Source: an uncultured Bacteroidales bacterium
GTDB taxonomy: Bacteria > Bacteroidota > Bacteroidia > Bacteroidales > F082
DNA: 39,169 nucleotides
Direction: 5' to 3'
Assembly: GCA_900318265.1 (NCBI GenBank)
Contig: ONKA01000002.1
Location: forward strand, 1 to 39,169
Shown here: piece by piece, positions 7,441 through 37,622 of the stretch
Layout: each line of letters begins with the position of its first letter
Position numbering within the stretch: the first letter of the stretch is position 1
Program-made: the position numbers and the translations under genes
The notes under the pieces: generated by a model
Told to the model about the DNA's origin: nothing
What the model saw: the letters and a program-made list of their open reading frames with translations, nothing else
Databases searched by the model: none

Positions 7441-10400
7441 TTACTTCACCACGATTTTCTGCACTTTCACCTCATTGCCGTTGATGAGGCGGAGCATGTA
7501 GATGCCAGGAGCGGCGTCCACACTGATACTTGCGCAGCCGTTGATGCTTTCGCTCTTCAAAATACGACCGTTCATGTCAATGATTTGCAAAGTGGCAGAT
7601 CTTGAGCCTGTCGCGGGATTGTTGATGATGAAGTTGCCATCGTTATAGAAGGCGAAGGTCCCTGCGCTTCCTGAACCTGTCGAAGGAGTCGAAGGGCCGT
7701 CTTCCTCCACATCGAGGACGACCTCCATGGGCGGCAGCACGATATTGTCCACCCACACGCAGTCCTGTCCGCCAGTGGCTCCACCGTCTTTCTCGTAGCT
7801 CCAAGTGAGGTGGTGCGTTCCTTCTGGGATCATGAAGTTGATGTAAGTCCAGCTGGTTTCGCCCGCCCAACGGCCTTTGCGTTCGCCATCGACATAAAAC
7901 ACGAGGAAGTCGTAGCCGGTCTCGGTGGAGGTCCTCACGTAGAAGCTGATCTCATTGTCGCAGGCGAAGTCATAGTCGAGACTCATGTCGGCGTGGCTGT
8001 TGTGACCCATCGACGTGGTGTGGGCGCAATATAGGCCTTCGTATGGACCATGGCTTACAATCTCCCAGCCGCCTTGGCCTTCAAACTGCCAGTCGAACTT
8101 GCTGAAGTCCCCTGTCTCGAAGTCTTCCATCTCGCTGTTCACATTGACGAAATAGGAGTCGTAGACAATGTAGTTCCCAGAATAAGTAGCTAAAATGAGT
8201 TCGAAGGCTTGGGCGTTTCTGGCATCGGTGATGCTCATTGTGAAGTCTACTGTGAAAGTGTCGTCGACGGCCAAGTCACCAACGCTGAATTGGTTCTGGT
8301 CGAAGAGGATTTCGGGTGCAGAGCAGTAGACGCCGAAGACGGTATTAGGCGAGAGGCTATGACCAGTGTTCTTGCCCGTGAAGTGCAGGGTGAGGGTCTC
8401 GCCGCTGTCGGCATGGCCGTTACCGTTGCCATCCACTTCTTCCAAGACGGTGGCAATCCGCCCGAAGTTGGGGGCGTTGAGGGTCATGTCGAATTGGCTC
8501 TCCCACGTCTCGTTTCCATCGGTACAAGTCAAAGTGAAGGTAACCACGGTCTGGTCGGGCACATCATCGCTGACGGTGAAAGCGAAGGCGTTGTCAAGGC
8601 TGACGGTAGCATGGGAGTCTACGGTTCCAACGGTGGCAGAGCCTTGCGTAATAGTGAAATATGTTGCATTACAACTCAAGGTGGCAGTTACATTGTTGGC
8701 CGTAAGGTTGCCTACATTGCGGAAGCCAATGTTGAGGTTTTGGTCCTCTCCGAAGTCGACCTGCCAATCGGGGTCGTTGAGGGCGTAGCTGTCAAAGAGC
8801 ACATGGGCACAGTTGGCGTTGTCGAAGCCGAGTTCAAGATGCTGGGGCCAGCCGTTCATGCCCGTGACATAGAGGTCGAGGACATCGGTGTTGTTGACGG
8901 CGGCAAAACAGAGCTCTGCGTCGCCGTTGGAATCGGTGGAAGCCAAAGCAATCAGTTCATCCCCTTTGAACAGACGGCATTCGAAGTTGTACATACCGTA
9001 ACCTTCTTCGTCATTCACGGTGACGGGAATGCGGTTGGTGCCCACGGGAAGGGTGGTGGCGCATTCGATTTCAGGTGTAAAGGGTTCGTCGAACCAGGCG
9101 CAAAGGCCCACATCACCTAAAGCATTAAGGGCATAAAATGACCAGCGCAGCACGCCGATTTCGCCATCCATGGTGATGAAAGGCGAGGTCTGAATCTTAC
9201 TTTCTTTTAAAGCAGCACCGAGGCCTGCCAAACGCTCGTGATTGTAAGCATCAATGAGCTCGCGATGGTAATGGTTTGAAGGGCCGTCGCCCATCTGGTT
9301 GTACCAGCCATAGCGCGAGTTGCCGATGGCAGCCACGGCGCCGGTTTCATTTACGACCATACGTTCCAAGATGCAGTCGTCGGCGAAGTCGCCGCAGATG
9401 CATCCTTGGCTCTTGAAGATGAAGTAGTTGTGGTCAGTGCCATTGGCGCCATAGAATAGGCTAGGCGTGATGTCCCAGTTACTCCAGCCCGACACATAGC
9501 TCGTGTTGGCATGGCCGAAGTGGTTCACGAATTGTATGCCATCGTTGATGGCGGCGGCAAGCTCGTCAGGATTCCAACTGTGGGTAGGCGTTTCATAGAT
9601 ACGCACAAAATCATAGTCTTCGGGATAGCCGTAGGTCGTATAGCCGTTGTAGTTGCACTCACCGATGAGGCGTTCGAGGTCGGTGCTGGCATACACGCCG
9701 TCACCGAGGTGCTCGCCGGCCAAAACAGGTTGACGGAACTCACCCAAGACGGGTGAAGTCATATAGCTGAAGGACTTGGAGAGTATGGTCTCCAGTTGGT
9801 TGGCATTGGTGAAAGGCAGACGAGCGATGGATAGCTCGGGCAAGAGGTCATCCTCGCCGATTTCGCCCCATTTGTTGTCGTCGTCGTCGTTGAGGGTGCC
9901 GTCGAGGCAGGCATAATAGCTGTCGGATGGCACGTTGTCGTCATAGCCTTCTTGGGCATGGCACCACAGGTTGCGATAGGGAACCAAGTTGACATCACCA
10001 CCGAGAAGCACCATAGAGATGCCGTGTTTCTCATATTCATCAATGATGTAGTTGCGGATCCTCTCCTTGTTGTCGCGACCCGTCATGGCTGCGTAAATGT
10101 CTTGAGTGGTAGCGATGCGGACGCGGATGCCGCGACCAGCATAGAGTGCTATGTAATCTCCAAAGCTCTCCGCATAGTTTTGCGTCGTGATGATGAGCAT
10201 TTCGTATTCCGGCAAGGCACCGTCGCGGCGGGTGTAGCTGTCGAGCATCTCGGCGTTCTGTGCCAATTTGCTGATGCTGTTTTTCGTCTCGGGACGCAGC
10301 CAGAGTTTACGGTTGTGGTCGGCACGAGAGGCTTGGTATTCCACGATGACCGTCACGGTTTGGGCATAGCTGACTTGACCCGATGCGGGTTTGTATTTCA

Positions 10401-10845
10401 CGGGAGTGAAGCCACCGAAGGCAAACGAGACACCGTTGAGCACCTGTGTACTGACCGTGTTGAAGGTCTTGTTGGGATAGGCCTCGTTGGAGCGGTAAAG
10501 CGCTTCATTCTTCTCGAAGACAAAGGGACTATCATCCGAGATGGGGCGAGGTTTTTGCGCAGGCAAGAGGTTGTATTGGCCGTCCAGTTCAGCGAAGTCA
10601 CCCAACGTCACATGGATGGCGGTGGCTTCAGTGTTTTGCGGCAGCATCAGGCTGATGCTTTGCCATGGCAGTTGTGGCTCGCCGACGGTGCCGTTTTGGA
10701 TGGATCGCTCAAACGAGAGCGTCTGGTATTCGCCGACTTGTTGAACGGTAGGCTTGCTGAAATGATAAGTGTGTGTAATGCTTTGCGCCGAGGCAATGAT
10801 GCTAACGGCAAGCATTAATAATAGGGAGAGACTCAGTCTTTTCAT
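7441..10845 (-). CDS. Gingipain-like C25 cysteine peptidase with repeat-invaded C-terminal domain (paralogue 2)
   Basis: This 1134-aa secreted peptidase has a signal peptide (MKRLSLSLLLMLAVSIIASA), a propeptide-like region, a C25 domain with His445 (GHANT) and Cys482 (GCICGDF), Ig-like modules, a MAM-like module and a CTD. It begins 8 bases after the stop of the gene at 10854, so the two form one operon. The CTD is odd. The usual YPNP is replaced by FYNDGNF, and two translated copies of repeat A (7601-7620, giving NPATGSRS, and 7661-7698, giving GPSTPSTGSGS) lie within or just before it. The last strands (GIYMLRLINGN...KIVVK) are intact, so T9SS export may persist, but this is uncertain. Confidence 0.88.
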   Translation of the reverse strand: MKRLSLSLLLMLAVSIIASAQSITHTYHFSKPTVQQVGEYQTLSFERSIQNGTVGEPQLPWQSISLMLPQNTEATAIHVTLGDFAELDGQYNLLPAQKPRPISDDSPFVFEKNEALYRSNEAYPNKTFNTVSTQVLNGVSFAFGGFTPVKYKPASGQVSYAQTVTVIVEYQASRADHNRKLWLRPETKNSISKLAQNAEMLDSYTRRDGALPEYEMLIITTQNYAESFGDYIALYAGRGIRVRIATTQDIYAAMTGRDNKERIRNYIIDEYEKHGISMVLLGGDVNLVPYRNLWCHAQEGYDDNVPSDSYYACLDGTLNDDDDNKWGEIGEDDLLPELSIARLPFTNANQLETILSKSFSYMTSPVLGEFRQPVLAGEHLGDGVYASTDLERLIGECNYNGYTTYGYPEDYDFVRIYETPTHSWNPDELAAAINDGIQFVNHFGHANTSYVSGWSNWDITPSLFYGANGTDHNYFIFKSQGCICGDFADDCILERMVVNETGAVAAIGNSRYGWYNQMGDGPSNHYHRELIDAYNHERLAGLGAALKESKIQTSPFITMDGEIGVLRWSFYALNALGDVGLCAWFDEPFTPEIECATTLPVGTNRIPVTVNDEEGYGMYNFECRLFKGDELIALASTDSNGDAELCFAAVNNTDVLDLYVTGMNGWPQHLELGFDNANCAHVLFDSYALNDPDWQVDFGEDQNLNIGFRNVGNLTANNVTATLSCNATYFTITQGSATVGTVDSHATVSLDNAFAFTVSDDVPDQTVVTFTLTCTDGNETWESQFDMTLNAPNFGRIATVLEEVDGNGNGHADSGETLTLHFTGKNTGHSLSPNTVFGVYCSAPEILFDQNQFSVGDLAVDDTFTVDFTMSITDARNAQAFELILATYSGNYIVYDSYFVNVNSEMEDFETGDFSKFDWQFEGQGGWEIVSHGPYEGLYCAHTTSMGHNSHADMSLDYDFACDNEISFYVRTSTETGYDFLVFYVDGERKGRWAGETSWTYINFMIPEGTHHLTWSYEKDGGATGGQDCVWVDNIVLPPMEVVLDVEEDGPSTPSTGSGSAGTFAFYNDGNFIINNPATGSRSATLQIIDMNGRILKSESINGCASISVDAAPGIYMLRLINGNEVKVQKIVVK
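7601..7620 (-). repeat. Repeat A copy inside a CTD
   Basis: CTTGAGCCTGTCGCGGGATT shares the GAGCCTGTCG core found at 22426 and 28558. Translated leftward it gives NPATGSRS, extra residues relative to the CTDs of the two sister peptidases. Confidence 0.65.
7661..7698 (-). repeat. Repeat A copy at the linker before a CTD
   Basis: The core CCTGAACCTGTCGAAGG is followed by a second TCGAAGGGCC. Leftward translation gives the Ser/Thr/Gly/Pro-rich peptide GPSTPSTGSGS between the MAM-like module and the CTD. Confidence 0.65.
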
Positions 10846-10853
10846 GGCTTAGG

Positions 10854-13800
10854 TTAGTCTACGATTAGCTTTTGGGTTTCGATGTTGTTCCCGCTCTGAA
10901 TCTTGACAAAATAAAGACCTTTTTGAGCATGGCTTAAGTCGATAGACTGGATTCCGGAGACCTTGTCTAAGCATGTGACGGTTTGTCCTAACACATTGTA
11001 AATATTGACGTTGCTCTCTTCAGCCAGCTGAATGGTGAAGCTACCATGGGTGGGGTTGGGATAGATGGCATTGGCTTGGGTTGTCACGATTTCTTCCACC
11101 TTGGTGATATAGCAGGTGCGCGGGAAGGTGATGTCGTCGATCCAGGCGCAGTCGCTGCCGGCATTTCCACTCTTGTTCTTGTCATAGATCCATTCAAACA
11201 CATGGCTGCCGGCTTCAAACTCGTAACTTACGAAGGTCCAATCGTTTTCGCCCGACCACCAGTCTTTTTTCCTGCCGTCGATGAAGAAGGCAAACAAATC
11301 TTTGTGATATTCGGTCGAGGTCTTGAACCAGAAGCTGATCTCTCCGTCGAGGAGGATGTCGGCATAAATCAAAAGGTAGGAAGCCTCCCCGTCGCCTATT
11401 TCGCCTGAACGAGCGCTGAAGGTGCCGTTATGTGATTCTTCGTCGGTGATGAACCAGTGACGGTCGCCAGCGTGTTCCCATTCCACGAAGTTGAAGTCAC
11501 CGCTTTCAAAGGTCTCGGTGGCCACGCCAACCGAGAACGAATAGTCGTAATGGGTGGCGTAGGCGCCAGTGTGGGCACATAGGTCAAGATGGAAGGTGGT
11601 TCCACTGATGATGTCGTTGTCGGTGTCGATGTTGACGTCAACAGAGAAATCGTTGTCTCTGTCGATGTCGCCCATCGGGAAGGTGGTGGCATCGAGATGA
11701 ATCCCTTGGCCCTCATAGTTGACAGTCATGTAGGCATCAGGAGCCAAGGCGTGTCCCATGTTCTTGACCGATATGTGGATTATGGCTTGCTCGCCCGGGT
11801 CGATGAATCCGTTGCCATCGCCTTGGATTTCCTCCAACTCAACTTCGACGAATTGCAGGTTGGGAGCCAAGGCAAGGAAGGACTTTTGTGTGGTGTGTGT
11901 GACATCGCCAACGTATGTGGTGAAGTTCAAGGTGAAGATGGTCTGGTCAGGGATGTTGTCGGCGATATCAATCGCGCCAAGACGATGGTCTTGCATGGTG
12001 CTGTTAGGCGCAAACTCGTCGATGGTAAAGTTGCCATCGAGCGGGTTGATGTATTCACAGTCGGAAGTCACTGCACCGTGGACGTTGTAGGCTGTCACGT
12101 CGCCTTTGTTGTACAAATCGCCGTCAACCCAAAGGCCCTGCGAGCCAAATTGCGGTTCTCCTTCAAAGCTGTAAATGTCACCGTAAACAAATGGTTCGTT
12201 GCCGTCGATTCCAGTCACTTCGAGGATTTGTGGCCAGGCACTCTGTCCGGTGACGATGAGTTTCAGCGCGCCCACCTTATCCAAGGCAGGGTCGAAGGTA
12301 AGGACTGCATCGCCATTGGCGTCGGTAATGCCGAAGCCAAGCAGGTCGTCGCCATCGAACAAGCTGACGCGGAAATTGTCGAGAGGAGTGCCGCATTGGT
12401 CTACATGAACAGTGGTGCTGGTAGTGCCCACCTTCATACCTGTCTCGAAGGTGACATTGGGTGTGAAAGGCTCCTCAAACCATGGAGACAAAGCGCCGTC
12501 GCCTAATACGTTGAGGCAGTAGATGTTCCAACGCAGGCAGCCGTTTTCTTCACCGTACATGGTGACCCAAGGCGCAGTGGCGATTTTAGCTTCGCGCAAG
12601 GCCATGCCGACGGTGGCAATATGGTCGTTGCAATAGGCATCCACAAATTCGCGGTGGATGTGGGCAGCCATGCCGTCGCCCCACGGCACATACCAACCGT
12701 AGCGTGAGTTACCCGTGGTGACCACGAATCCAGTCTCAATCGTAACCATCTTCTCCAAGATGCAGCTTGCCGGGAAGTTGCCGCAGATGCAGCCATGCGA
12801 ATGGAAGAGCATATAGTTATGGTTGACGCCGTCGTTGCCAGCAAAGAAATCGTTGTTCATGGAAGAACCCTCCCAACCAGCAACGATGTCGGTGTTGGCG
12901 TGGCCTACATGATGCACGTATTGTCCGCCGGTGCCGATGAGTCTTCTGAAATCACCGCCACTCCAATTGACGCGAGGTGTGGCATAATAACGCTTGATGT
13001 TGTAGTCTTCGGGATAGCCCGTAGTGGTATAGTCATAGTCGGTGTTAGTGCCGATAAGGCGTTCCATGTCGGTACTGCCATAATAGCCGTCACCCAGATG
13101 CTCGGCGCCAAGGATAGGGCTGGTGAACTCACCCAAGACCGGCGTCTGCAGGTAGCTGAAGGTCTTGTGCATGATGTTCTCAAACTGGGTCTCGTTGTTG
13201 AAAGGCAGGCGGCCGATACTCAGCTCGGGCAGCAGGTCGTCTTCGCCAACTTCGCCCCAGCGGTCGTCGTTGTCATCATTGAGGGTGCCATCGAGGCAAG
13301 CATAGTACATGTCGGAAGGCAGTTGGTCCTCGTCGCCTTCTTGTGCCCAGCAGTATAGGAAACGGAACGGCACGATGCTGACATCGCCGCCGAGGTTCAC
13401 TATGGAAATGCCGTTGTTTTCGTATTCTTGGATGATGTAGTTGCGGATTTGTTCCGGCTCATCGCGACCGTCCATGGTGGCATAAATCTCTTCCAAGGAA
13501 ACAATGCGGGTGCGGATGCCTTTGTCATTGTATAGGTTGAGGTATTCGCCGAAACGTGGAATCCATTCCTCGGATGTGATGACCAACATGTCGTAGCCAC
13601 CGATGGAGCGTCCACGCTGGGTGTAGGTGCTCAAGACGTTCTCGTTTTGGGCCAAGCGCTTAATAGAGGCCTCGTTCTCGGGCGTGAGCCAGAGTTTGGG
13701 GCTGTGGTCATCGCGGCTCATGCTGGTCTCGATGCTGACCTTCACGGTCTGGGCATAGCTGACCTTACCCGTGGCGGGCACGTATTGCATCGGCGTGAAA

Positions 13801-14231
13801 CCGCTGAAGGCGAAGGCCACTCCGTTGAGGTAATGCGTGCTGACACTGCTGAAGCTTTGTGTCGGATAGACATTTCCCGAGCGGTATAGTACCTCGTTTT
13901 TGGCGAAGGGGATCTCTTCTTCGTTGGAGATGGGACGGGGCTTTTGATAAGGATAGAGGTTGAAGATGCCTTCAAGCTCCACAAAATCAGAGAACTCGAC
14001 GTCGATAGAGACCGCTTCCTGGCCTTGGGGAAGCATCAGGCTGACGCTCTGCCAGGGCAGTGTGGGTTCGCCCACTTGACCGATAGGTAAGCAGTCTTTG
14101 AATCCGATTTGTTGGTAGCCGTCGCGCTCGCTAACGATCGGCTGGTTGAAATGATAGGTTTGTTCAATGGTTTGGGCCTGCGCAAAAAGGGCGGAGGCCA
14201 AAAGTGCTAGGACTAGTTGTAGCTTTTTCAT
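10854..14231 (-). CDS. Gingipain-like C25 cysteine peptidase with T9SS sorting domain (paralogue 3)
   Basis: This 1125-aa secreted peptidase is the first gene of a two-gene operon. ATG 14231 gives the signal peptide MKKLQLVLALLASALFAQA; the TTG two codons upstream is less likely. It carries a propeptide-like region, a C25 domain with His444 (GHANT) and Cys481 in GCICGNF (Asn replacing the Asp of its sisters), CARDB/Ig-like modules, a MAM-like module beginning FESGDFNFVEW, and a clean type A CTD with YPNPTHG ending KLIVD. It should be exported by Sec and T9SS to the cell surface. It is more similar in layout to paralogue 1 than to its operon partner, because its CTD is free of repeats. Specificity is unknown. 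Confidence 0.9.
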   Translation of the reverse strand: MKKLQLVLALLASALFAQAQTIEQTYHFNQPIVSERDGYQQIGFKDCLPIGQVGEPTLPWQSVSLMLPQGQEAVSIDVEFSDFVELEGIFNLYPYQKPRPISNEEEIPFAKNEVLYRSGNVYPTQSFSSVSTHYLNGVAFAFSGFTPMQYVPATGKVSYAQTVKVSIETSMSRDDHSPKLWLTPENEASIKRLAQNENVLSTYTQRGRSIGGYDMLVITSEEWIPRFGEYLNLYNDKGIRTRIVSLEEIYATMDGRDEPEQIRNYIIQEYENNGISIVNLGGDVSIVPFRFLYCWAQEGDEDQLPSDMYYACLDGTLNDDNDDRWGEVGEDDLLPELSIGRLPFNNETQFENIMHKTFSYLQTPVLGEFTSPILGAEHLGDGYYGSTDMERLIGTNTDYDYTTTGYPEDYNIKRYYATPRVNWSGGDFRRLIGTGGQYVHHVGHANTDIVAGWEGSSMNNDFFAGNDGVNHNYMLFHSHGCICGNFPASCILEKMVTIETGFVVTTGNSRYGWYVPWGDGMAAHIHREFVDAYCNDHIATVGMALREAKIATAPWVTMYGEENGCLRWNIYCLNVLGDGALSPWFEEPFTPNVTFETGMKVGTTSTTVHVDQCGTPLDNFRVSLFDGDDLLGFGITDANGDAVLTFDPALDKVGALKLIVTGQSAWPQILEVTGIDGNEPFVYGDIYSFEGEPQFGSQGLWVDGDLYNKGDVTAYNVHGAVTSDCEYINPLDGNFTIDEFAPNSTMQDHRLGAIDIADNIPDQTIFTLNFTTYVGDVTHTTQKSFLALAPNLQFVEVELEEIQGDGNGFIDPGEQAIIHISVKNMGHALAPDAYMTVNYEGQGIHLDATTFPMGDIDRDNDFSVDVNIDTDNDIISGTTFHLDLCAHTGAYATHYDYSFSVGVATETFESGDFNFVEWEHAGDRHWFITDEESHNGTFSARSGEIGDGEASYLLIYADILLDGEISFWFKTSTEYHKDLFAFFIDGRKKDWWSGENDWTFVSYEFEAGSHVFEWIYDKNKSGNAGSDCAWIDDITFPRTCYITKVEEIVTTQANAIYPNPTHGSFTIQLAEESNVNIYNVLGQTVTCLDKVSGIQSIDLSHAQKGLYFVKIQSGNNIETQKLIVD

Positions 14232-14253
14232 TTTCAATGAGTAAATTTGGGCG

Positions 14254-14261
14254 CAAAAATA
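14254..14261 (-). promoter_or_regulatory. -7 box of the promoter for the C25 peptidase operon
   Basis: Leftward TATTTTTG matches TAnnTTTG, 22 bases before the ATG at 14231. No clear -33 element is visible. It is divergent from the ddh promoter 33 bases away. Confidence 0.55.
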
Positions 14262-14293
14262 AAAAAAACTGCCGTATTCTTTCGTTTTTTTTC

Positions 14294-14301
14294 TACTTTT
14301 G
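14294..14301 (+). promoter_or_regulatory. -7 box of the promoter for ddh
   Basis: TACTTTTG matches TAnnTTTG and ends 19 bases before the ATG at 14321. The expected -33 region is not recognisable. Confidence 0.5.
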
Positions 14302-14320
14302 CCCTTTAATTCTACAAAAA

Positions 14321-15214: not shown

Positions 15215-15261
15215 TCCAAGTATTAAACAATGGCACAGCATCACAAAACCCAACCACAAAC

Positions 15262-15381
15262 CGTCATCGCGGGCACAGAACTGCGATTGCCCCGATGTCA
15301 TCGCGGACTCGATCCGCGATCTCCTGAATATAAAGGCAATCCTTCTATTTCAGGAGATGGCGGATCCTTGTCCGCCATGAC
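15262..15381. repeat. Repeat C: degenerate half unit plus 85-bp nested palindrome
   Basis: Bases 15297-15381 form a long inverted repeat. The left arm begins GTCATCGCGGACTCGATCCG and the right arm, reverse complemented, begins GTCATGGCGGACAAGGATCC; both continue with ATCTCCTGAA. Each arm also holds its own small hairpin (GCGGA...TCCGC). A degenerate half unit (CGTCATCGCGGGC...) precedes it at 15262-15295. The element fills most of the ddh-GH3 gap and its last bases contain the GH3 start codon. Confidence 0.85.
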
Positions 15382-19781: not shown

Positions 19782-19811
19782 TGTAGAGACGCGCCATGGC
19801 ACGTCTCTACA
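19782..19811. repeat. Repeat B palindrome between M13 peptidase and plsC
   Basis: TGTAGAGACG pairs with CGTCTCTACA around a core GCCATGGC; the arms are near-perfect over 15 bases each. A second copy is at 32832. The central CATG supplies a candidate start for plsC. As RNA it could also form an intercistronic hairpin. Confidence 0.85.
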
Positions 19812-21950: not shown

Positions 21951-23765
21951 TTAAAGATCTCCTTCCAGTTTAAGTTCCGTCTGCAAAGTCCTCAAATACG
22001 GCCTCTCTTCCACCATCTTCTCAAACTTGTCCTTGTCGGTATAGGCATCGATTTCGGCGGGACGTTCCATCACCTCAGGCTTGAGTTGGTATTGGTTGTT
22101 GTGCAGACTGTTCTTCAAATGGTGTTTCAAGGCAGACATGCCTTCTGTGTCGTGCTCAAAGAGCAGGTTGTCGACGCTGAAGTGGATCTCGGCGCTGCCC
22201 ATTAATTTAGGAGTGTATTTGCCCAATGCCGCAGCGAAGTTGGGCGACACGTTTTTGTACCGGTTGACAAAATCGGCCCATGCTGCTGTGAGCTGCTCTT
22301 GGGTGAAAGGAGTGTCCCATGTCTCTTCCTTCTCTTCGGCTTTTTGTCCTGCCTGCTGCATGGCCTTATTGATGCTGATGCTACTGGTGGTGCCACGGGG
22401 TCGGACTACTGGCTGCTGTGCGGACGTTGAGCCTGTCGAAACGGGAGCGGTTTGTTGTTGAATTGTTGATTGTTGAGTTGTTGAATTGTTGGGTTGAGAT
22501 TGTTGAGGCTGTTGTGCCGTGGTCGGCCCTTCGACGGGCTCAGGGACCTTTGTTGTAGCGGACGTTGAGCCCATGGAGACGCCACTAGGTACGGTAGGGT
22601 TTGCGGTTTGCGCTGGTCTGTTTTGCGGCATCTGCACGGGTTGTGCCTGCGCCGTAGGCATATTTAAGGCTTGACTGCACAAGGCGCACATCTTCAGCAA
22701 GGCAATCTCCAGATGCAACCGTTTGTTGTTGGCGGCGCGGTAGTCGATGTCACACTTGTTGTTGATTTCCAAAGCGCGGATCAGGAAGGGCATGGGGCAA
22801 GCCTGCGACTGTGCCAGATAACGTTGCCGCAGTTGTTCGCTGACCTCCAAGAGTTGCACCGTGATCGGGTCTTTGCATACCATGAGGCTCCTCAAGTGGT
22901 TGCCCAGACCGTTAATGAAATGCTGGGGCTCAAAGCCTTTGCTGATGATGTCGTTGAGGATGAGCAGAATGTCGCTCGTGTTGCCGTGAAGGATGTGGTC
23001 GACGATTTGGAAATAATAGTCGTAGTCGAGTACGTTGAGGTTGTCGATGACGTCCTTGTAAGTGATGTTCTTGCCCGAGAAGCTCACCATTTGGTCGAAG
23101 ATGGAAAGGGCGTCGCGCAAGGCACCGTCGGCTTTCTGGGCGATGATGTTCAAGGCTTCGGGTTCGGCGCTGACGCCTTCGCTTTGGGCCACAAAGGCCA
23201 AATGTTTAGCGATGTCATCAACCGTAATCCGCTTGAAGTCAAAAATTTGGCAACGAGAGAGGATGGTCGGGATGATTTTATGTTTTTCCGTCGTGGCGAG
23301 GATGAATTTGGCGTACGCCGGCGGCTCTTCCAAAGTCTTCAGGAAGGCGTTGAAAGCCGCTGCCGACAGCATGTGGACCTCGTCGATGATGTAGACTTTG
23401 TACTGTCCGATTTGTGGTGGGATCCTCACTTGGTCGACCAAGCTGCGGATGTCTTCCACCGAGTTGTTGGAGGCAGCGTCCAACTCGTAGATGTTGAACG
23501 AGGCGTTGTTGTTGAAGGCGCGGCACGACTCACATTCGTTGCAGGCCTCAAGGTTCTCGGTAGGGTGGAGGCAGTTGATGGTCTTAGCCATGATACGGGC
23601 GCAGGTGGTCTTGCCCACACCGCGCGGACCGCAAAACAGGAAGGCCTGTGCCAAAGTGTTGTTGCGGATGGCGTTCTTCAACGTGTTGGTGATGGAGCCT
23701 TGACCCACGACGGTGTCGAAGGTCATTGGCCTGTATTTTCTAGCGGATACGACGAAATTTTCCAT
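21951..23765 (-). CDS. dnaX: DNA polymerase III subunits gamma/tau
   Basis: This 604-aa clamp-loader ATPase of the replisome has Walker A GPRGVGKT (46-53), a zinc module with Cys65, Cys75, Cys78 and Cys81, Walker B IIDEVHML, and the SRC sensor in ILSRCQIF. AAA+ and lid domains run to about 360. The tau-type C-terminal half follows a long Ser/Thr/Gln/Pro linker at about 390-450. The linker is built largely from repetitive DNA (22424-22585): three copies of repeat A and a TTGTTGAATTG-type simple repeat, all kept in frame. A divergent promoter pair separates it from the deacetylase gene. It probably leads a transcript including the M13 peptidase, plsC and the unknown gene. Confidence 0.95.
   Translation of the reverse strand: MENFVVSARKYRPMTFDTVVGQGSITNTLKNAIRNNTLAQAFLFCGPRGVGKTTCARIMAKTINCLHPTENLEACNECESCRAFNNNASFNIYELDAASNNSVEDIRSLVDQVRIPPQIGQYKVYIIDEVHMLSAAAFNAFLKTLEEPPAYAKFILATTEKHKIIPTILSRCQIFDFKRITVDDIAKHLAFVAQSEGVSAEPEALNIIAQKADGALRDALSIFDQMVSFSGKNITYKDVIDNLNVLDYDYYFQIVDHILHGNTSDILLILNDIISKGFEPQHFINGLGNHLRSLMVCKDPITVQLLEVSEQLRQRYLAQSQACPMPFLIRALEINNKCDIDYRAANNKRLHLEIALLKMCALCSQALNMPTAQAQPVQMPQNRPAQTANPTVPSGVSMGSTSATTKVPEPVEGPTTAQQPQQSQPNNSTTQQSTIQQQTAPVSTGSTSAQQPVVRPRGTTSSISINKAMQQAGQKAEEKEETWDTPFTQEQLTAAWADFVNRYKNVSPNFAAALGKYTPKLMGSAEIHFSVDNLLFEHDTEGMSALKHHLKNSLHNNQYQLKPEVMERPAEIDAYTDKDKFEKMVEERPYLRTLQTELKLEGDL
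22424..22585 (-). repeat. Cluster of repeat A and simple repeats in the dnaX linker
   Basis: GTTGAGCCTGTCGAAACGGG (22426-22445) and GTTGAGCCCATGGAGAC (22564-22580) lie in one orientation, both after GCGGAC. GGCCCTTCGACGGGCTCAGG (22525-22544, extending to 22547) lies inverted between them. Bases 22450-22500 are a TTGTTGAATTG-type run. Leftward translation gives PVSTGSTSA, VPEPVEGP and an N/S/T/Q-rich stretch. Confidence 0.8.
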
Positions 23766-28519: not shown

Positions 28520-28525
28520 TAGTCG

Positions 28526-28576
28526 GCGTTCCGACGGGCTCAACGGCCGAGGGTCCCTGAGCCTGTCGAAGGGCCC
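28526..28576. repeat. Repeat A inverted pair between transporter and HhH gene
   Basis: GTTCCGACGGGCTCAAC faces GTCCCTGAGCCTGTCGAAGG across a short spacer; the two are imperfect inverted copies of the same core. It occupies most of the 70-base gap and could fold as a hairpin. It is the only clearly intergenic copy of repeat A found. Confidence 0.8.
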
Positions 28577-28589
28577 GAAACCAAAGAAT

Positions 28590-29743: not shown

Positions 29744-29748
29744 CCGCC

Positions 29749-31131: not shown

Positions 31132-31142
31132 TTTTGCAGGGA

Positions 31143-31172
31143 TTTTTCCATCTTTTTTATGGAAAAATTTTT
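31143..31172 (+). terminator. A+T-rich terminator-like hairpin
   Basis: TTTTTCCAT pairs with ATGGAAAAA around a T-rich loop, followed by TTTTT, 11 bases after the regulator stop. The stem is A+T-rich and so weak. Confidence 0.45.
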
Positions 31173-31255
31173 ATTAATTGGTTGATTATCAATATCAAGT
31201 CTTGGAAAAAATATGGATTAGGCCATGGAATTGGCTTTTTTGGCGATATTTTCAT

Positions 31256-31264
31256 ATAATTTTG
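31256..31264 (+). promoter_or_regulatory. Possible promoter for the GLUG-repeat gene
   Basis: TATAATTTG resembles TAnnTTTG with one extra base, 22 bases before the ATG at 31287, with TTGG about 21 bases upstream. Confidence 0.35.
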
Positions 31265-31286
31265 CGGAAACATAAAAGTTACGACC

Positions 31287-33020
31287 ATGAAAAAGCATTT
31301 TATTCTCTCAATGCTGCTCGCAGTCGGGATGACGGTTGCGGCACAGACCCCTTGGAACGGCACGGTCGCCGAAGCCTACGACGGCGGCGACGGCACGCCT
31401 GAAAACCCTTACCAGATTGCGACGGCTGAACAACTGGCGTTGTTGGCCCAACAAACCGAAGATGGCACTGGAGGTGATGCCTGTTATGTGCTTACCAATG
31501 ACATTTGTCTCAATGAAGGCGATACCCTCTATTGGACACCTATTGGTCTGACGGGTACATTTAGGGGTGTTTTTGACGGCGACCAACACTCCATCAGTGG
31601 TATGTACGAAAACGGGTTTAAACTGTCTGGTTTGTTTGGATATACGGAAAACGCCACGATAAAAAACGTCAGGATTGAAAAAGCCACCGTCATGGAATAT
31701 GATCAGGCTTTTGTATATATTGCCATCGGTGGTATTCTCGTCGGCAAGGCGAAAAACACCCATATCTTGGATTGCTCGGTGGAAGGCTGGATTGAGATTT
31801 TTAGTGCTAAACCAAGCGGAGGTTTGGTTGGACAATGCGAAGTTGACGTCAACGATACGGTCTTCATTAAAAACTGTGTAAACTATGCCAGTGTTACCTG
31901 GAACGAATGCACTGGAGGTGTGGTCGGAAAGACGATTGTCAATAACGGGCATCTTGTTATAGACAATTGTGCCAATAATGGCTATATTAAGGGTTGGACT
32001 TTTTCAGGAGGTATGGTTGGCAATGGCGATTTTATCATCAAAAACTGCCACAACTTTGGCGAAATCGTTTCGGAAGGTACCGCAGGAGGTATGGCGGGAC
32101 AAGGAGGGCTAAACTGTTTGATCACCTATTGTTTCAATCATGAGTCGGGCGTAATCACGGGCGGCATGAATACAGGAGGCATTATTGGCACAGCGATAAA
32201 AACCGTCATGTCATGCTGTGGTAACGCGGCACTCATTACAGGAGTCAATGATGACGAAATCATGGTTGGAGGCATCTCAGGAGCCGACGGCACCATTTAT
32301 AACTGCTTCAACCGCGGTGATTTGACCGCTGTTTTCACAGAAGATCCTCTTTTGATCCAAATGGGAGGCATAACAAGCACTCCACTTCACGATGAACAAA
32401 TTCGAAACGTATATAACGCAGGCGCAATCATCAAGCCATCGAATCCAGACATCCCGAATTCATGGTACGGGCATGTTCTTCCAGCCATATTTAGCGACAC
32501 GTTGATCAGCAATTGCTATTGGATTGGTAACGAATCGTTTACGCCGTATGTTTACAACATTGGGGTCAGCAACTGGACGCTCCTTCCTGGCTCGTCGGTT
32601 TTCGGTCCAGGTGCAACGCCAACTACATGGGTGCTCGACGAGGCGCAATATGGCACCACCGACTTGGTTGAGGCATTGAACGCCGGCGCCATGGGCCAAT
32701 GCACATGGGTGGAAGATGTGGATGGCGAGAATGCCGGCTATCCCATCTTCGGCCTCTTGGATCCAAATCGCGTTGATGAAATCGTGGAGAGCCCATTCCA
32801 GGTCTATCCCAATCCGACCAACGGCATCTTGTTTGTAGAGACGCGGCGCGCCACGTCTCTACAAAAGGCAACAGAATACCGCATCACCAACCTCATGGGC
32901 CAAACCCTGCAATCAGGCCGCATCGCGAGCGACCGTCAACAATTGGACGTGTCGGCCTTGCCTGCCGGCATGTATCTTCTCACCATCGACGGCACGACGG
33001 TGAAATTTATTGTGAAATAA
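31287..33020 (+). CDS. Secreted GLUG-repeat protein with T9SS sorting domain
   Basis: This 577-aa protein has a signal peptide (MKKHFILSMLLAVGMTVAAQ). Its body is repeated beta-strand units of GLUG type (GGLVGQ, GGVVGK, GGMVGN, GGMAGQ, GGIIGT), expected to form a right-handed beta-helix, as in many adhesins. A CTD with YPNPTNG begins at about residue 506 and ends KFIVK. The CTD contains a translated copy of palindrome B (32832-32865) giving VETRRATSLQK right after YPNPTNGILF. This gene begins a run of surface cargo genes; the next starts 21 bases after its stop. The ligand is unknown. Confidence 0.85.
   Translation: MKKHFILSMLLAVGMTVAAQTPWNGTVAEAYDGGDGTPENPYQIATAEQLALLAQQTEDGTGGDACYVLTNDICLNEGDTLYWTPIGLTGTFRGVFDGDQHSISGMYENGFKLSGLFGYTENATIKNVRIEKATVMEYDQAFVYIAIGGILVGKAKNTHILDCSVEGWIEIFSAKPSGGLVGQCEVDVNDTVFIKNCVNYASVTWNECTGGVVGKTIVNNGHLVIDNCANNGYIKGWTFSGGMVGNGDFIIKNCHNFGEIVSEGTAGGMAGQGGLNCLITYCFNHESGVITGGMNTGGIIGTAIKTVMSCCGNAALITGVNDDEIMVGGISGADGTIYNCFNRGDLTAVFTEDPLLIQMGGITSTPLHDEQIRNVYNAGAIIKPSNPDIPNSWYGHVLPAIFSDTLISNCYWIGNESFTPYVYNIGVSNWTLLPGSSVFGPGATPTTWVLDEAQYGTTDLVEALNAGAMGQCTWVEDVDGENAGYPIFGLLDPNRVDEIVESPFQVYPNPTNGILFVETRRATSLQKATEYRITNLMGQTLQSGRIASDRQQLDVSALPAGMYLLTIDGTTVKFIVK
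32832..32865 (+). repeat. Repeat B palindrome inside a CTD
   Basis: TTTGTAGAGACG pairs with CGTCTCTACAAA around GCGGCGCGCCA-type bases. It is the same element as at 19782, here translated within the sorting domain of the GLUG protein. Confidence 0.85.
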
Positions 33021-33041
33021 ACGATTAAAAATCAACAGAGT

Positions 33042-34721
33042 ATGAAATGTATCATTAAACTATTGGCCGTAATTGTTCTCGCTTTGGTTTTCGGAGGCAA
33101 GGCCGTTGCCCAGGAATGGGAAATCGCGCACGAATACGCCTATTCCGACACTTGCATTTTCAACTACTATGAGGCCAAAGAAATGGCCAATGGCAATATC
33201 GCTGTCGAGTCCTACATGGCTTACAAAAGCGGTGTGGGCGACTTCTACTCGCTGCAACCTGCTGTCGCTGTCATTGAGCCTGAAAACGGTCGTCGCAGCA
33301 TACATCAGTCTTATTTCAAGCCTGGCTATTATACCAGCAACATTCCGTATGTCTTTGAGAAAGACGGCACGCTCTATCTCCTTGCCACCTACACGCCCGA
33401 CCACGATTTCACCTATTTCAACTACTTCAAAAACTATGAGGAGCAATCCGACAAAGCCTATCTTGGTCTCTACCGCCTTGATGACCACCTTGACATTGCA
33501 GAAAGCTACGAAACCACAATAGCTATTGATACCTTCGAACTGCGCAACAACGGCAACTGGCAGAGTCTGCCCAACGACTACAGCGGCAGCCTGTTCCTTT
33601 TCTCGGCTTTGCAAGAGGATGATGCTATCGTGGGCGCATACGTTAAGCGGCGCAGCCTTGGTCACGACTTGGTGCACGACAGTCTGTTCTTCTTCCGCAT
33701 GAATTATCAAGGCGACATCATCCATCAAGTGAGCTACCCGATGAAAAGCGACAACACCAGTCTGTCGCGTACTTTCTTCTTGCGAAGGCACCATCTTGTC
33801 AAGAATGGCAGCGGCTTCATCTTCTACGACTTGTCCAACAATAGTACTATATCTGGTAAAGCTGAAAACAACGATTACGACAACGAAGGTTTCGCATTAT
33901 ACCTTGACCACGATTTCAACTGCGTGAACGCCAAGGCGTTCTGTCATTACAACAATCACTACAGCAACCGGTTCTATGATATGTCGGTCATTCGCAGCCA
34001 TTATGGCACCACCTACATCGCCACCGAGTTCTTTGATGAAAACCAGTCGTCATCGGGGATTTCGAGTTGTGCCCTATACGAATATGACGACGGCGACGGC
34101 AAGTTGAGTTATTTGAATATGCTGAACCACGTGCATAGATATCAGTTCAACCGTATGGACTTCACGCCGCAGAAAGGTGTCGACATCTGCCCCACGGACT
34201 GGACGCTGTATTTCGGCTATACCTTGAATGCCGTTACTGCCAGCAGCGACTCGTGGATGATGATAGAGCACCTGTATGCCCATTTCGACACCATCAGCAC
34301 GATGTATTATGACCTCAAGATCCCACGTTGCCGCAGCTTTATGTCGGCCATCACCGCCACTCGCGACGGCGGCTGCATGATTGTTTATAATGCCAAGAAC
34401 CTTGACCAGACAGACCAACGTTGGAGTTGTGTCACCAAATTTCCCGCCGAGGCTTTCGTAGGCATCGACGAGGCCCACGACAATGGCCTGAAAGTCGCCA
34501 TCGCTTATCCCAATCCCGGAAAGGATGTGCTAAATATCAGGACTGGATTGAAGAATGCGCGGGTGGAGGTGTATGATATGAATGGAAGGATGGCTTATAG
34601 GCAGGAGATTACGGAGAATGTCACCGCCATCAATACGACGGATTGGGCTGAGGGCGTTTATGTTTGGAAGGTAATTGTAGATGGGAAGGAAACGGAAGTT
34701 GGGAAGTGGATTAAGGAATGA
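33042..34721 (+). CDS. Secreted protein of unknown function with T9SS sorting domain
   Basis: This 559-aa protein has a signal peptide (MKCIIKLLAVIVLALVFGGKAVAQ) and a long central region rich in aromatic and acidic residues. Strand-like repeats such as LYLLATY, FFFRMNYQGDI and GFALYLDHDF suggest a beta-propeller, but no known motif is clear. The CTD starts at about residue 485 with AYPNPGKDVLNIRTGLKNAR and ends GKWIKE. The frameshifted gene at 36271 carries a CTD of almost identical DNA, and both have a preceding VGIDEAH / VGIEEAH linker, so the two cargoes are related at least at their ends. It is 21 bases from the upstream gene and probably in its operon. Confidence 0.82.
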   Translation: MKCIIKLLAVIVLALVFGGKAVAQEWEIAHEYAYSDTCIFNYYEAKEMANGNIAVESYMAYKSGVGDFYSLQPAVAVIEPENGRRSIHQSYFKPGYYTSNIPYVFEKDGTLYLLATYTPDHDFTYFNYFKNYEEQSDKAYLGLYRLDDHLDIAESYETTIAIDTFELRNNGNWQSLPNDYSGSLFLFSALQEDDAIVGAYVKRRSLGHDLVHDSLFFFRMNYQGDIIHQVSYPMKSDNTSLSRTFFLRRHHLVKNGSGFIFYDLSNNSTISGKAENNDYDNEGFALYLDHDFNCVNAKAFCHYNNHYSNRFYDMSVIRSHYGTTYIATEFFDENQSSSGISSCALYEYDDGDGKLSYLNMLNHVHRYQFNRMDFTPQKGVDICPTDWTLYFGYTLNAVTASSDSWMMIEHLYAHFDTISTMYYDLKIPRCRSFMSAITATRDGGCMIVYNAKNLDQTDQRWSCVTKFPAEAFVGIDEAHDNGLKVAIAYPNPGKDVLNIRTGLKNARVEVYDMNGRMAYRQEITENVTAINTTDWAEGVYVWKVIVDGKETEVGKWIKE

Positions 34722-34876
34722 AAATACCTTTGGAGGGATGAAAACAGATTGCGTGTTGTCAAAAAAATAGGGACAAGCCGTTTTACTGCTATTTTTCAAA
34801 TCATTGAAAAACAATATTTTGAAGAGTTGGCAACAAGAAAAAGTATGGACAAGGCAGGAGTTGCCCGTGAAAAGCT

Positions 34877-34906
34877 CTTGACAAGTAATCTTTATCATTA
34901 ACTTTG
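34877..34906 (+). promoter_or_regulatory. Bacteroidota-type promoter for the Asp-box cargo gene
   Basis: CTTG (34877-34880) is followed after 18 bases by TAACTTTG (34899-34906), 24 bases before the ATG at 34931. Both elements and the spacing fit the consensus. Confidence 0.65.
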
Positions 34907-34930
34907 CGAAAATATCAAAACCGAACCCCA

Positions 34931-36274
34931 ATGAAAGCAACGAAAATTTACACCCTGCTTGCGCTCCTGCTGATGGCGGGAGGGGCGACAAAGGCACAAC
35001 AATGGAAGTATCTCCAAACTGGAGTTGCTGAAGACCTTTACAATGTCTGCTGCATCGATGACAATACGATTTTTGTGTGTGGACAGAACGGGGTGATACT
35101 CAAATCAACCGACAGTGGTGCGCACTGGGCGGAGAAGTATCGCAGAACGGGTTGTCAAATGACAGAAATATGCTTTGCAGACGCGAATAATGGCTATGCG
35201 GTATGTGATTCCATATTAGACATTTACACGGAAGTCCATCAGTGGTTTTTGGTAAAGACCTATGATGGAGGCGAAACTTGGAATGAAGTGGGCGAGCCCA
35301 TTCTCTCATGGGTTGATAGCTACACCACATTAATCAGGCAATTTGTCCGTGCTGAATTGTTTTTGAATGATACTGATAATTTGGTGGTAGCTGTCTCATT
35401 CGATGGCATCTACAAAAGCACCGATGGTGGTGCTACCATGAGAAAACTGGACGTTGATTTCACCATCAATGAGACAAGAGGGATTTTTTTTGAGGACAAT
35501 GTTGGGTATCTGCTATGGGATTATGGAAATGATGATTTCCTGTTTCCAGAAGAAAGATGTGCCGGGGTGGCGAAAACGGAAGACTTTGGTGAGACATGGG
35601 TTTTGAAGGAAAATGTCACGGACATTACAGAGGGGATAAGTTATGCCCATTTTTACGACAAGAATCACATAAGATTGTTTGGCGAATTTCAATTCTCCGA
35701 GTACGACTACTATGGCATATTGGATACTTATGACGGTTTTGACTCCTTTGAAACGGTAGGTGGTGAAACCTCTGGATATTTCCAATTCTATGAAGAATAC
35801 ATAAGAGCCAAGTTCACCGAGAACGGGTGGGGAGTATCCATGCTATGGGAGGAAGATATGCCAGGAGTCGGCAGAAGTGTCGCATATACTGAAGACGACG
35901 GCTTGTCATGGACTTTTTATTCTGGATATGGTCTTCCCACATACAGGCTTTATGACATTGACGGAACCGACACCACTTTCTACATTTCGTGTGCCGGAGG
36001 AAATGTCCTTAAAAGCCGCCAATTCACGCTTATGGGCACAGGAGAAAACGTTTCGCAGGTGGTCGCAGTTTATCCCAATCCAGCAAGGGATAGAGTTGTA
36101 ATTGAAGGCATTGAAGCTGTTGAGATACAAGTTTACAACACCCTTGGACGGGTGGTGAAGACCGTGCGGGGGACGAATGAAATCCCCGTTGCAGACTTGC
36201 CGCAAGGGGTTTTTATGCTGCGCATTATGGATGCTGAAGGAAAAGTTTACACTAACAAAATCACGAAACGATGA
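34931..36274 (+). CDS. Secreted Asp-box beta-propeller protein with T9SS sorting domain
   Basis: This 447-aa protein starts at ATG 34931, which opens the signal peptide MKATKIYTLLALLLMAGGATKAQ. It shows about five Asp-box-like motifs (KSTDSGAHW, KTYDGGETW, KSTDGGATM, KTEDFGETW, YTEDDGLSW), the pattern of sialidase/BNR and Ycf48-type propellers. No sialidase catalytic residues can be claimed. The CTD begins at about 380 (VYPNPARDRVVIEG) and ends NKITKR. Its TGA overlaps the ATG of the next gene, giving translational coupling. The function is unknown; surface binding is an inference. Confidence 0.82.
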   Translation: MKATKIYTLLALLLMAGGATKAQQWKYLQTGVAEDLYNVCCIDDNTIFVCGQNGVILKSTDSGAHWAEKYRRTGCQMTEICFADANNGYAVCDSILDIYTEVHQWFLVKTYDGGETWNEVGEPILSWVDSYTTLIRQFVRAELFLNDTDNLVVAVSFDGIYKSTDGGATMRKLDVDFTINETRGIFFEDNVGYLLWDYGNDDFLFPEERCAGVAKTEDFGETWVLKENVTDITEGISYAHFYDKNHIRLFGEFQFSEYDYYGILDTYDGFDSFETVGGETSGYFQFYEEYIRAKFTENGWGVSMLWEEDMPGVGRSVAYTEDDGLSWTFYSGYGLPTYRLYDIDGTDTTFYISCAGGNVLKSRQFTLMGTGENVSQVVAVYPNPARDRVVIEGIEAVEIQVYNTLGRVVKTVRGTNEIPVADLPQGVFMLRIMDAEGKVYTNKITKR

Positions 36275-37622
36275 GAAATATTAGACTATACGCCCTGCTT
36301 GCGCTCCTGATGATGGCGGGAGGGGTGACGATGCAGGCGCAAGAAATGAATGAAATCTTTGTCAGTGACACTCTGACCATCCAATACCTTCATCGTATTA
36401 ACGGCGGGTTCCTTGCCAAAGGCTATGGCCCGGAACCGTATAGGCAGTATCTCGTGAAATTCGATGACGAAGGTGAGGTACTTGGCTCGGTGTGTTGGCA
36501 TTCAACTGGACGGGACTTGATGTGCGCAGGTATGATGCCCTGTTTGAGCCGATGGCCGTCTGCTGTAAGGACGGGAGCGTCATCTTCTCATATTCGGTGG
36601 ACACCTTGTTTTCGGCATTGACCCAGGGCATCCGTATCTTGAAATTTGACACAGAGGGCAATATGGTTGCAGAAAGGCTTTTTGATGCCGCTCCCATGCA
36701 GGATGCCTATCCCGTGTTTTCTTCGCCCGACTCATTGGGATGCTGCATCATCATGCCCAATCCTAACCCACCGCTTGAAGAGGATTGCCATGTCCTTGAT
36801 GAAGATCTCAACATTGCTTTTGTCAAAGAACATATCAACTCACTTTCATACCCGAAGATGCTTATGGGTTATATGTATGTTTCGCTTAATCCTCATAACA
36901 ACAGATCATACGGAATTGGTTCGTTCAATATGCCTGCTTTTGGTGGGAATCCTGCCATCAAGCAGGACATCTTTATGACCGCGTTTGATGACAAGTTCAA
37001 TCAACTGGCATATTGTCTTGGGCCTGTCACCGACCTCAATGATGAACGCGCCTTACGCAAGGCCATTGACTACGGCAGTGATGGCAGCGTCTATATGTGT
37101 GGATATATGGATTATGGCAGCATCAACAATATATACATCACGCATTTTGACGAGAATTTGAACCAATTTGGCGAAATCTATTACCACGATGAGCAAAGGG
37201 CACTTACTCCATACAGTGTGTGCGCCTATCCCGAAGGTTGTTTGGTGTGTTGCGCGGGAATGAACAGGAGGACACAAGAAAGGGAAAATTGTATTTATCG
37301 CATCAAGGATGAGGTATTTGTTGGTATTGAAGAAGCACATAATGCAGGTTTCGCTGTGGCAATGGCTTATCCCAATCCTGGGAAGGATGTGCTGAACATC
37401 AGGACGGGATTGAAGAATGCGCGGGTGGAGGTGTATGATATGAATGGGAGGCTTGTTCACAATCAACAAATCACCGACAACATCACTTCGATAAATGTGG
37501 AAAACTGGTCTTCGGGGACTTATGTTTGGAAGGTGTATGCGGGCGTTTCGACGCTTCGACAAGGCTCAGCGACCTCAGGCTCAACGACCCTCGCGGAAAC
37601 AGGGAAATGGGTGAAGGAATAG
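36271..37622 (+). pseudogene. Frameshifted T9SS cargo gene
   Basis: This was one gene, now in two frames. The first part (from ATG 36271) has a signal peptide MRNIRLYALLALLMMAGGVTMQAQ and reads to VLGSVCW at about 36498, then runs into nonsense and stops at 36621. The second frame continues smoothly from about 36496 as AFNWTGLDVRRYDALFEP to a full CTD (AYPNPGKDVLNIRT...GKWVKE). Restoring one G in TTGG at 36496-36498 joins the two as ...CWAFNW.... The CTD is further altered by an in-frame copy of repeat A (37542-37600). It could be a genuine pseudogene, a phase-variable state or an assembly error. It is coupled to the preceding gene by ATGA. Confidence 0.8.
37542..37600 (+). repeat. Repeat A insertion in a CTD
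   Basis: Two direct, partly degenerate cores (TCGACAAGGCTCAGCGACC and CTCAGGCTCAACGACC) lie next to each other, following GTTTCGACGCTTCGAC. Translation gives VSTLRQGSATSGSTTLA between WKVYAG and GKWVKE. The sister CTD at 33042 has only VIVDGKETEV there. Confidence 0.8.

Follow-up and report, generated by a model that had tools for sequence, protein, structure and literature searches.

Three palindromic repeat families, probably of REP type, in a Bacteroidales genome and the occurrence of one of them inside protein genes

Palindromic repeats in the window and in the genome

The DNA analysed here (hereafter, the window) is a stretch of 39,169 nucleotides from an uncultured Bacteroidales bacterium (contig ONKA01000002.1 of assembly GCA_900318265.1), and corresponds to C17:1-39169 of a genome, called G000 in what follows, that comprises 2,975,802 bases in 50 contigs and is 89% complete. 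It contains copies of three families of short palindromic repeats, named A, B and C, lying in and between genes that include dnaX, a GH3 gene and genes for type IX secreted proteins (Table 1). The three families are most probably repetitive extragenic palindromic (REP)-type elements, that is, short imperfect hairpins copied round the chromosome; A and C form also inverted pairs, B has its own REP-associated tyrosine transposase (RAYT), and for A no transposase was found among the loci examined. The genus is likely to be a ruminant-gut lineage, because the protein of one RAYT described below (locus L301, genome G382) is identical to a protein of a red-deer metagenome-assembled genome (MAG) of an uncultured Bacteroidales bacterium.

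Both strands of G000 were searched for the three families, with the core read backward as control. The A core (GAGCCTGTCGAA) occurs at 75 sites (39 and 36 by strand), with a chance expectation of about 0.35 sites for a 12-mer at equal base frequencies, the B motif (TGTAGAGACG..CGTCTCTACA) at 23 sites, every one of 30 bp, and the C unit (GGAGATNNCGGA..TCCGNNATGA, 27-28 bp) at 22 sites, its inner stem alone being found at three; each of the controls gave 0. An earlier reading of the window, made from its letters only, had proposed three distinct REP-like palindromic families and had named chance-level counts across the genome as the outcome that would speak against them; the cores lie far above their controls, and the proposal is borne out.

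The 75 copies of A have about 26 bp in common (consensus AGGTCCCTGAGCCTGTCGAAGGGCCG), outside which the flanking columns are near random. Three variable pairs of the stem are wholly complementary in 68 of the copies and occur in nine combinations, among them CCC/GGG, TGC/GCA, CGT/ACG and TCC/GGA. Certain copies have a longer, nested form of 41 or 44 bp (26 plus 15 or 18, counted by eye), tandem as well as nested copies are seen, and inverted pairs, such as that at 28522-28580, combine different stem variants. C is a hairpin tagged with GGAG, whose NN positions vary yet pair (GG/CC, CG/CG, TG/CA), and it forms inverted pairs at three places (on contigs C14, C17 and C27); four of its units lie within 6 kb at G000:C18:228122-233879, about 1.2-2.4 kb apart. 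The two ends of B are GTAG and CTAC, and its centre varies, mostly remaining self-complementary. All three families are palindromes of 20-40 bp present in many copies, with compensatory changes in the stem, as is characteristic of REPs; B is also mainly extragenic (19 of its 23 copies are intergenic), which A is not (40 of 75 lie in predicted genes), and of the three only B has the GTAG/CTAC ends of double-foot REPs. In Escherichia coli, REP units of differing stem variants that are paired in inverted orientation, an arrangement seen here for A at 28522 and for the paired C units, are known as bacterial interspersed mosaic elements, and REPs there are almost wholly extragenic, unlike A. An Rfam scan of the window gave no match at gathering scores.

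Table 1. Repeat copies in the window and the dnaX gene that hosts two of them
Feature	Position	Strand	Context
Weak A-like stretch, 10/12 core bases	7594..7618	+	C-terminal part of C25-peptidase-like gene; below the exact-core definition
A, nested long form, core GAACCTGTCGAA (7673), one core mismatch	7664..7695	+	Inside gene 7441-10845 (-), reading frame open
C, two inverted GGAG-tagged hairpin units, 15298-15324 (-) and 15353-15380 (+), with a spacer stem between	15296..15380		Upstream of GH3 gene
B, exact	19782..19811		Upstream of gene 19183-19713/19797 (-)
dnaX (DNA polymerase III gamma/tau), by Pfam	21951..23765	-	Host of two A copies in its C-terminal linker
A	22421..22447	+	dnaX linker; in-frame reading VSTGST, opposite strand
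A, second dnaX-linker copy, core GAGCCCGTCGAA	22523..22549	-	Read as VPEPVEGP
A, inverted pair with different stem variants	28522..28580		Intergenic
B, exact, in frame (VETRRATSLQ)	32834..32863		In type IX sorting domain (Por_Secre_tail, residues 506-574) of gene 31287-33020
A, degenerate or nested	37542..37590		Near C-terminus of gene 36492-37622

The A copies at 22421 and 22523 and the A pair at 28522 are solid, the second dnaX copy, at 22523, having gone unlisted in the sequence-only reading; at 7604 only 10 of the 12 core bases are present, in a stretch that may be a chance match or a decayed copy. The statement in that reading that most copies lie inside or at the edge of genes describes about half of A. 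For B these are a minority (4 of 23 inside predicted genes), and for C the statement finds no support, as none of the three inner-stem copies that were classified lies inside a gene and one overlaps a start by 4 bases (the remaining C units were checked for a spanning open reading frame (ORF) at ten fetched loci only). Nor does it apply to the pair at 28522, which is intergenic, or to the B copy at 19782, which is upstream of its gene. Where copies do lie in genes the frame is kept, as had been noticed: the ORFs of the window are open through the elements at 7673, 22421, 22523, 32834 and 37542.

The gene at 7441-10845 has a match to Peptidase_C25 and a weak one, below cut-off, to Por_Secre_tail, and repeated segments are common to three long minus-strand genes (246-3704, 7441-10845 and 10854-14237). 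The likely start of the GH3 gene is the ATG at 15377, formed by the last bases of C (GCCATGA) and followed, in our own reading, by a signal of lipoprotein type (MTVKGVLFALFVVVCLVLSSC); a lipoprotein gene would in this way take its start codon from the end of the C unit at 15353-15380. At the B copy at 19782, the ATG of the ORF is that of the CCATGG of the palindrome, and the gene model puts the gene start downstream; seven of 11 relatives have a different centre at the same place and the element is absent in four, more relatives without it being found in a uniform re-alignment. The B copy at 32834 is present at the same place in genomes G296 and G315. In the gene at 36492-37622, the Por_Secre_tail match stops at residue 352 of 376, just ahead of the degenerate A, and another type IX protein of the same genome (L091) carries an A near its C-terminus.

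Family B and its transposase

A profile search of fetched loci identified, near a copy of A, a RAYT gene (L301) that has B-type palindromes within it as well as on either side. This RAYT, searched against the genus, has matches in 69 of 99 genomes at E 1e-5, and the match in the window's own genome (G000:C6:57761-58318; L380) is on a contig other than that of the window. B copies flank this gene and one more lies in frame within it, the upstream and the internal copies having the same centre (GGTGTGCACACC); the ORF is open through the insert, from 2058 to 1492, and the insert stands between the HuH and Y motifs. B was found at the RAYT gene in 24 of 30 fetched loci, L380 included (L387-L392 have none), and 15 of these 24, again with the own genome among them, have an internal copy. 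L380 was missed by a search with PF01797 because its score against this Pfam Y1 model, 18.7 bits, is under the cut-off of 23; against the NCBIfam model REP_Tyr_transpos it scores 59.1 bits, below the curated cut-off of 80. All four genic copies of B in G000 are in the VETRxxTSLQ-type frame, which is one of two open frames.

In the part of PMC6006769 that was available, the motifs of subclass 2.4 RAYTs are given as NH[IFV]H and YIxNNP, where L380 reads NHLH and YIENNV, and B shows no essential difference from the double-foot REPs described there with RAYTs of this subclass. Judged by motif and anatomy, B is the double-foot GTAG REP of a subclass-2.4-like RAYT and is already known in kind. With a RAYT for it in the same genome, B is therefore an ordinary RAYT-linked REP, which would be copied, following the known model, through a single-stranded hairpin recognised by its RAYT. 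The repeats had been taken as non-autonomous, which holds within the window, although B has its RAYT elsewhere in the genome, and the search for a RAYT gene that had been proposed was successful for B, whereas none was found with A on both flanks in the loci examined. Among viral contigs, 23 stretches with B were seen.

Family A inside genes

Gene calls were made with our own Markov gene model, trained on fetched stretches and giving a coding fraction of 85.8%. Of the A copies that are not in predicted genes, all 35 are intergenic and none lies across a gene edge. A is rarer in genes than random placement predicts (40/75 against the coding fraction; p 1.7e-11) and genes are therefore avoided yet tolerated, and its genic share is far above expectation for an extragenic palindrome. 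The host proteins number 38, of which 36 match Pfam at E 1e-3 (L045 and L096 have no match, and those of L070 and L099 are weak). They include proteins of replication and division (DnaX, FtsZ with two linker copies, a DNA gyrase A homologue with A in its C-terminal tail, and a GyrB/ParE homologue), tRNA-related proteins (valyl-tRNA synthetase, encoded by valS, TilS and, doubtfully, MiaA, with an N-terminal copy) and a variety of other enzymes: MurB, a cysteine-desulfurase-type aminotransferase, a dTDP-glucose dehydratase, a UDP-sugar 2-epimerase, a transketolase, methylmalonyl-CoA mutase and mevalonate diphosphate decarboxylase. Also among the hosts are an oligopeptide ABC ATPase, a permease, proteins of HemN and prolyl oligopeptidase type, two tricorn-like proteases and several type IX secreted proteins.

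Coordinates read against the element place A inside a Pfam domain at 14 of the 40 genic sites (L026, first gene; L027, L030, L031, L035, L051, L054, L055, L056, L062, L068, L069, L082, where it lies between two stretches of one domain, and L090) and in linkers, termini or unmatched parts at the others, so A is not confined to the C-terminal domains, linkers and N-termini for which the sequence-only reading had suggested a preference. L035 was counted as in-domain after correction of its start (ORF intact from 1568 to 2428), and it reads as transketolase on either side of A, the upstream part being our own reading.

One of the six readings of A has a stop (TGA). Genic copies are read as PSTGSG in 16 cases, LRQAQG in 12, PEPVEG in 9, FDRLR in 2 and SLSLSK in 1, and the stop frame is not used; the sole SLSLSK case is the miaA copy, which may lie upstream of the true start. 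The first three frames hold 37 of the 40 copies (chi-square over the five open frames, p 3.5e-4), which is the frame bias that the earlier reading had proposed to look for. Since these frames were picked after seeing the data of the own genome, they were tested on exact copies of an A 25-mer in other loci. In 57 loci of other Bacteroidales-type records among the matches listed, 37 of 62 exact copies are inside genes, every one of the 37 in a favoured frame, and their hosts form 28 protein clusters, of which 16 have no homologue among the A hosts of G000. Among the same matches, 15 Actinomycetota loci have 12 of 19 copies inside genes, 11 of the 12 in favoured frames, and eight further loci have 4 of 10 inside genes, all four in favoured frames, the gene model having had small training sets for these last two groups. 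Some of the records share the window's genus, and the probabilities are therefore only indicative.

The frame bias would be caused by selection. A unit of about 26 bp would insert in either orientation, in and between genes, and an insertion with a net length that is a multiple of three would be translatable in most frames, because one of the six readings has a stop. Selection would remove most insertions into genes and keep those frames that give soft hydrophilic peptides (PSTGSG, LRQAQG, PEPVEG) in linkers, termini and tolerant loops. The A-derived peptides are presumably translated, and the enzymes tagged in this way probably function normally.

Relatives with and without the element were compared at several sites. 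The 75-base stretch of the pair at 28522-28580 is kept in six relatives, while nine are without most of it (6 to 18 bases left); after re-alignment, the loci of ten relatives have no trace of A, with net differences of 57 to 69 bases. In a re-alignment of twelve pairs of loci, the relative proved to lack A in four: the ABC ATPase (L062/L366, net 30 bases, good flanks), an A2M-type protein (L056/L315, net 45 bases, good flanks), L069/L356, where a different stretch stands in its place, and L060/L358; in the others it has a short, long, single or paired form. The difference of +23 between L091 and L283 is made up, in our own reading, of 6 bases beside A and 17 outside the gene. In a uniform re-alignment of own sites with the fetched relatives, length had changed in 20 of 29 intragenic comparisons (16 sites), 17 times by a multiple of three, and in 36 of 50 intergenic ones (7 sites), 15 times by such a multiple (Fisher p 0.002, for comparisons that are non-independent and come in many cases from two window sites).

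The linker of dnaX differs in whole length from that of the window by multiples of 3 in 16 of 16 relatives, and in the protein alignment it is hypervariable, with A-derived peptides at shifting places. At the copy at 22421, two relatives without trace of A differ by 21 and 30 bases and one with a copy of A differs by 35. An initial reading of exact 27-bp empty sites in this linker was rejected, because the flanks were mis-anchored in repetitive sequence: G336, G325 and the window all carry A or decayed A there. Differences of -1, 14 and 17 measured with narrow flanks are unreliable owing to the same mis-anchoring. The stretch 22360-22640 appears as a hot spot, where the relatives vary in their A copies and show nested forms and TTGTTGAATTG-like repeats. 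In a gene of the exonuclease/phosphatase family (L090, compared with L335 and L331), the relatives have A inverted or paired at the same place, which suggests that a single tolerant site has undergone insertion or replacement more than once.

Solved structures were searched for nine of the A hosts. The insert falls in a clear gap against the epimerase homologue 8sxv (18 residues), the MurB homologue 7orz (15 residues) and the cysteine desulfurase 5vpr, in which it is unaligned between two stretches, and smaller gaps are found at or beside the insert in the dehydratase, the ABC ATPase, the topoisomerase B subunit and the mevalonate decarboxylase. The presence of the same residues in orthologues of distant relatives had been named beforehand as an observation that would argue against insertion; three solved homologues are clearly without them, although other hosts show less clear gaps or none. 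It is hardly credible that the peptides are ancestral protein segments whose likeness in DNA is a codon-level coincidence. Some sites are indeed filled in several species of the genus, but nearly half of the copies (35 of 75) are intergenic, relatives without the element exist, the stem covaries at the DNA level and the three solved homologues lack the residues.

Spread and mobility of family A

At least one match to the A core followed by G within three bases is present in 120 of 295 genomes of the order, and within the genus the number of cores per genome ranges from 0 to 138, being 0 in 14 of 60 sampled genomes. The exact 25-mer of A goes further: grouped by record titles, the 80 matches listed comprise at least 57 Bacteroidales-type, at least 15 Actinomycetota and at least two Fibrobacter records, together with at least four of Treponema, at least one of Lachnospiraceae and at least one of UBP14. 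Among these listed matches, those of Treponema, Lachnospiraceae and UBP14 come from MAGs, and strains are named in the titles of many Actinomycetota records and of one Fibrobacter record. A viral collection gave no exact A 24-mer. An artefact of assembly or binning would be conceivable for a MAG of 89% completeness in 50 contigs, with relatives that are themselves mostly named as MAGs, but it is very improbable, given that the same insertions occur at the same places in other genomes and that strain-titled records (Microbacterium, Plantibacter, Fibrobacter intestinalis ATCC 43854) carry the exact 25-mer.

We tentatively suggest, as a reading that may well prove wrong, that A is one REP family present in at least four phyla (Bacteroidota, Actinomycetota, Fibrobacterota and, by MAGs only, Spirochaetota), which has repeatedly entered genes, has been kept there in three linker-like frames, lengthening essential proteins in many lineages, and has no RAYT of its own or one yet unseen.

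The search for a transposase of A started from PF01797, which matches 4 genes in the own genome and has matches in 42 of 60 genomes of the genus and in 19 of 19 genomes picked mostly for many A cores. The flanks of RAYT genes were scanned in 133 loci (L014-L017, L154-L252 and L367-L396), with a reach of 1.5 kb, 700 bp, 1 kb or 260 bp; for 21 of the 50 loci of the 1-kb set, in which motifs failed to locate the gene, the whole locus was scanned instead and no A, B or C motif appeared. Copies of A near a RAYT are few and one-sided: two on the same side at L193, one about 300 bp upstream at L301 and one variant downstream at L377. At L194, A is upstream of the RAYT in a flank that reads, to us, as a neighbouring gene, and L167 and L179 have only looser A matches. 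Thirteen intervals were found between A copies 350-1500 bp apart, and the 12 that were read contain ordinary genes (for instance, MurD and mevalonate decarboxylase) and no recognisable transposase. In our reading, A would insert through a single-strand mechanism acting in trans, or else depend on an enzyme yet unseen.

One candidate for such action in trans is a RAYT of the lineage without A beside its gene, for instance of the L017 type (L017, at G000:C17:150077-153307, is a RAYT with its own palindromes, GTCAGTCGGCCCGACT). Within the genus, 12 of the 27 genomes that are A-rich (at least 10 cores) have genes of this type, as against 0 of the 33 that are A-poor (Fisher p 1.2e-5), the type being assigned from the profile range of the match and the association ignoring kinship; RAYTs of the L301 type are likewise commoner in A-rich genomes (24 of 27) than in A-poor ones (15 of 33). 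Mobilisation by such an enzyme nevertheless seems unlikely, since the association with L017 is uncorrected for relatedness, the palindromes at the flanks of L017 are different from A and no A lies within 700 bp of it.

Other transposases were met in this search. L014 (G000:C45:118990) and L015 (G000:C19:32985) are Y1 transposases with the subclass 1.2 motif Y---Q--HH; palindromes of the ACCCCGTAGGGGT type stand near the gene ends, on both sides of L014 and on one of L015, and two of the seven genome copies are elsewhere. The palindrome ACCCCKWMGGGGT at these genes was considered as a dispersed REP and rejected, with five of its seven sites at the two genes themselves; Y1 transposases of subclass 1.2 are described, in the accessible text of PMC6006769, as generally without terminal repeats. 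In relatives, subclass 2.6-type RAYTs (L199, L200, L202) are flanked by other palindromes (GCGAATTTGCAATTCG, CGGATTTGCAATCCG), and the genus therefore holds further REP families.

Alternatively, A could be similar to the CGTC superfamily of REPs and have spread without a dedicated transposase, via replication slippage, gene conversion or transformation between bacteria. Exact 25-mers that cross phyla, the failure to find a flanking transposase in the loci examined, the tandem and nested copies and the short, long, single and paired forms seen in relatives at one place all fit such a spread, which we regard as possible, if doubtful: the ends of A have no CGTC (the terminal CGTC and CCA tail of CGTC REPs are both absent from its consensus), and scattered insertions at unrelated places, with relatives that lack them, resemble transposition.

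Several observations weigh against A, and in part C, as transposed REP elements that enter genes. Neither A nor C has the GTAG tag, and no RAYT with A on both flanks was found among the loci examined. Most comparisons at the same place show another form of A (short, long, single, paired) and not an empty site, and related genomes are not independent of one another. Of the 20 length changes inside genes, three are not divisible by three: dnaX at 22421 against G325, measured within the repetitive linker, the B site of L024 against L259, and miaA (L043 against L182), where A is missing and the difference is -2 bases, and where the annotated start may therefore be wrong. The Markov gene model also misplaced at least one start (that of L035). 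Lastly, there is no clean gap at the A site of valyl-tRNA synthetase against its solved homologue, and the mutase had no solved-structure match at the cut-off used.

The probable REP nature of A finds both likeness and difference in known systems. In the portion of PMC3733652 available to us, REPs inside genes are already reported, many of them in DNA replication and repair genes, most REPs being intergenic and the CGTC REPs apparently without transposase. A is like the GTAG and CGTC REPs described there in size, hairpin, inverted dimers, stem sub-families and genic copies that include replication and repair genes, and unlike them in having neither tag, in its genic share (40/75), in a measured frame bias and in exact copies across phyla. 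Likeness to REPs and to the Rickettsia palindromic elements (RPEs) had been noted from the window only, and the in-frame copies of A in genes of known function agree with it. RPEs are in effect the nearest parallel, being palindromic and in frame within unrelated genes; they measure about 150 bp according to the part of PMC10969869 consulted, as compared with about 26 bp for A in another phylum, and RPE-4 and RPE-6 are classed as CGTC REPs in that of PMC3733652.

A text search of the literature gave no match for the A core strings and, for the B and C strings, no title on bacterial repeats among the matches listed; no report of intragenic REPs in Bacteroidales or of a frame bias in REP-derived peptides was found in this search, which left subscription papers mostly outside. 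Intragenic REPs are already known in kind, and what seems new is the genic share of A, its frame bias and its exact copies across phyla. The family poses the question of what moves a REP that crosses phyla without a visible transposase. It also offers a second rich natural experiment, beside that of Rickettsia, on selfish palindromes turning into protein segments, in which dozens of sites in the conserved enzymes of one genus, with orthologues that have another form or none, make the fate of frame and structure directly testable.

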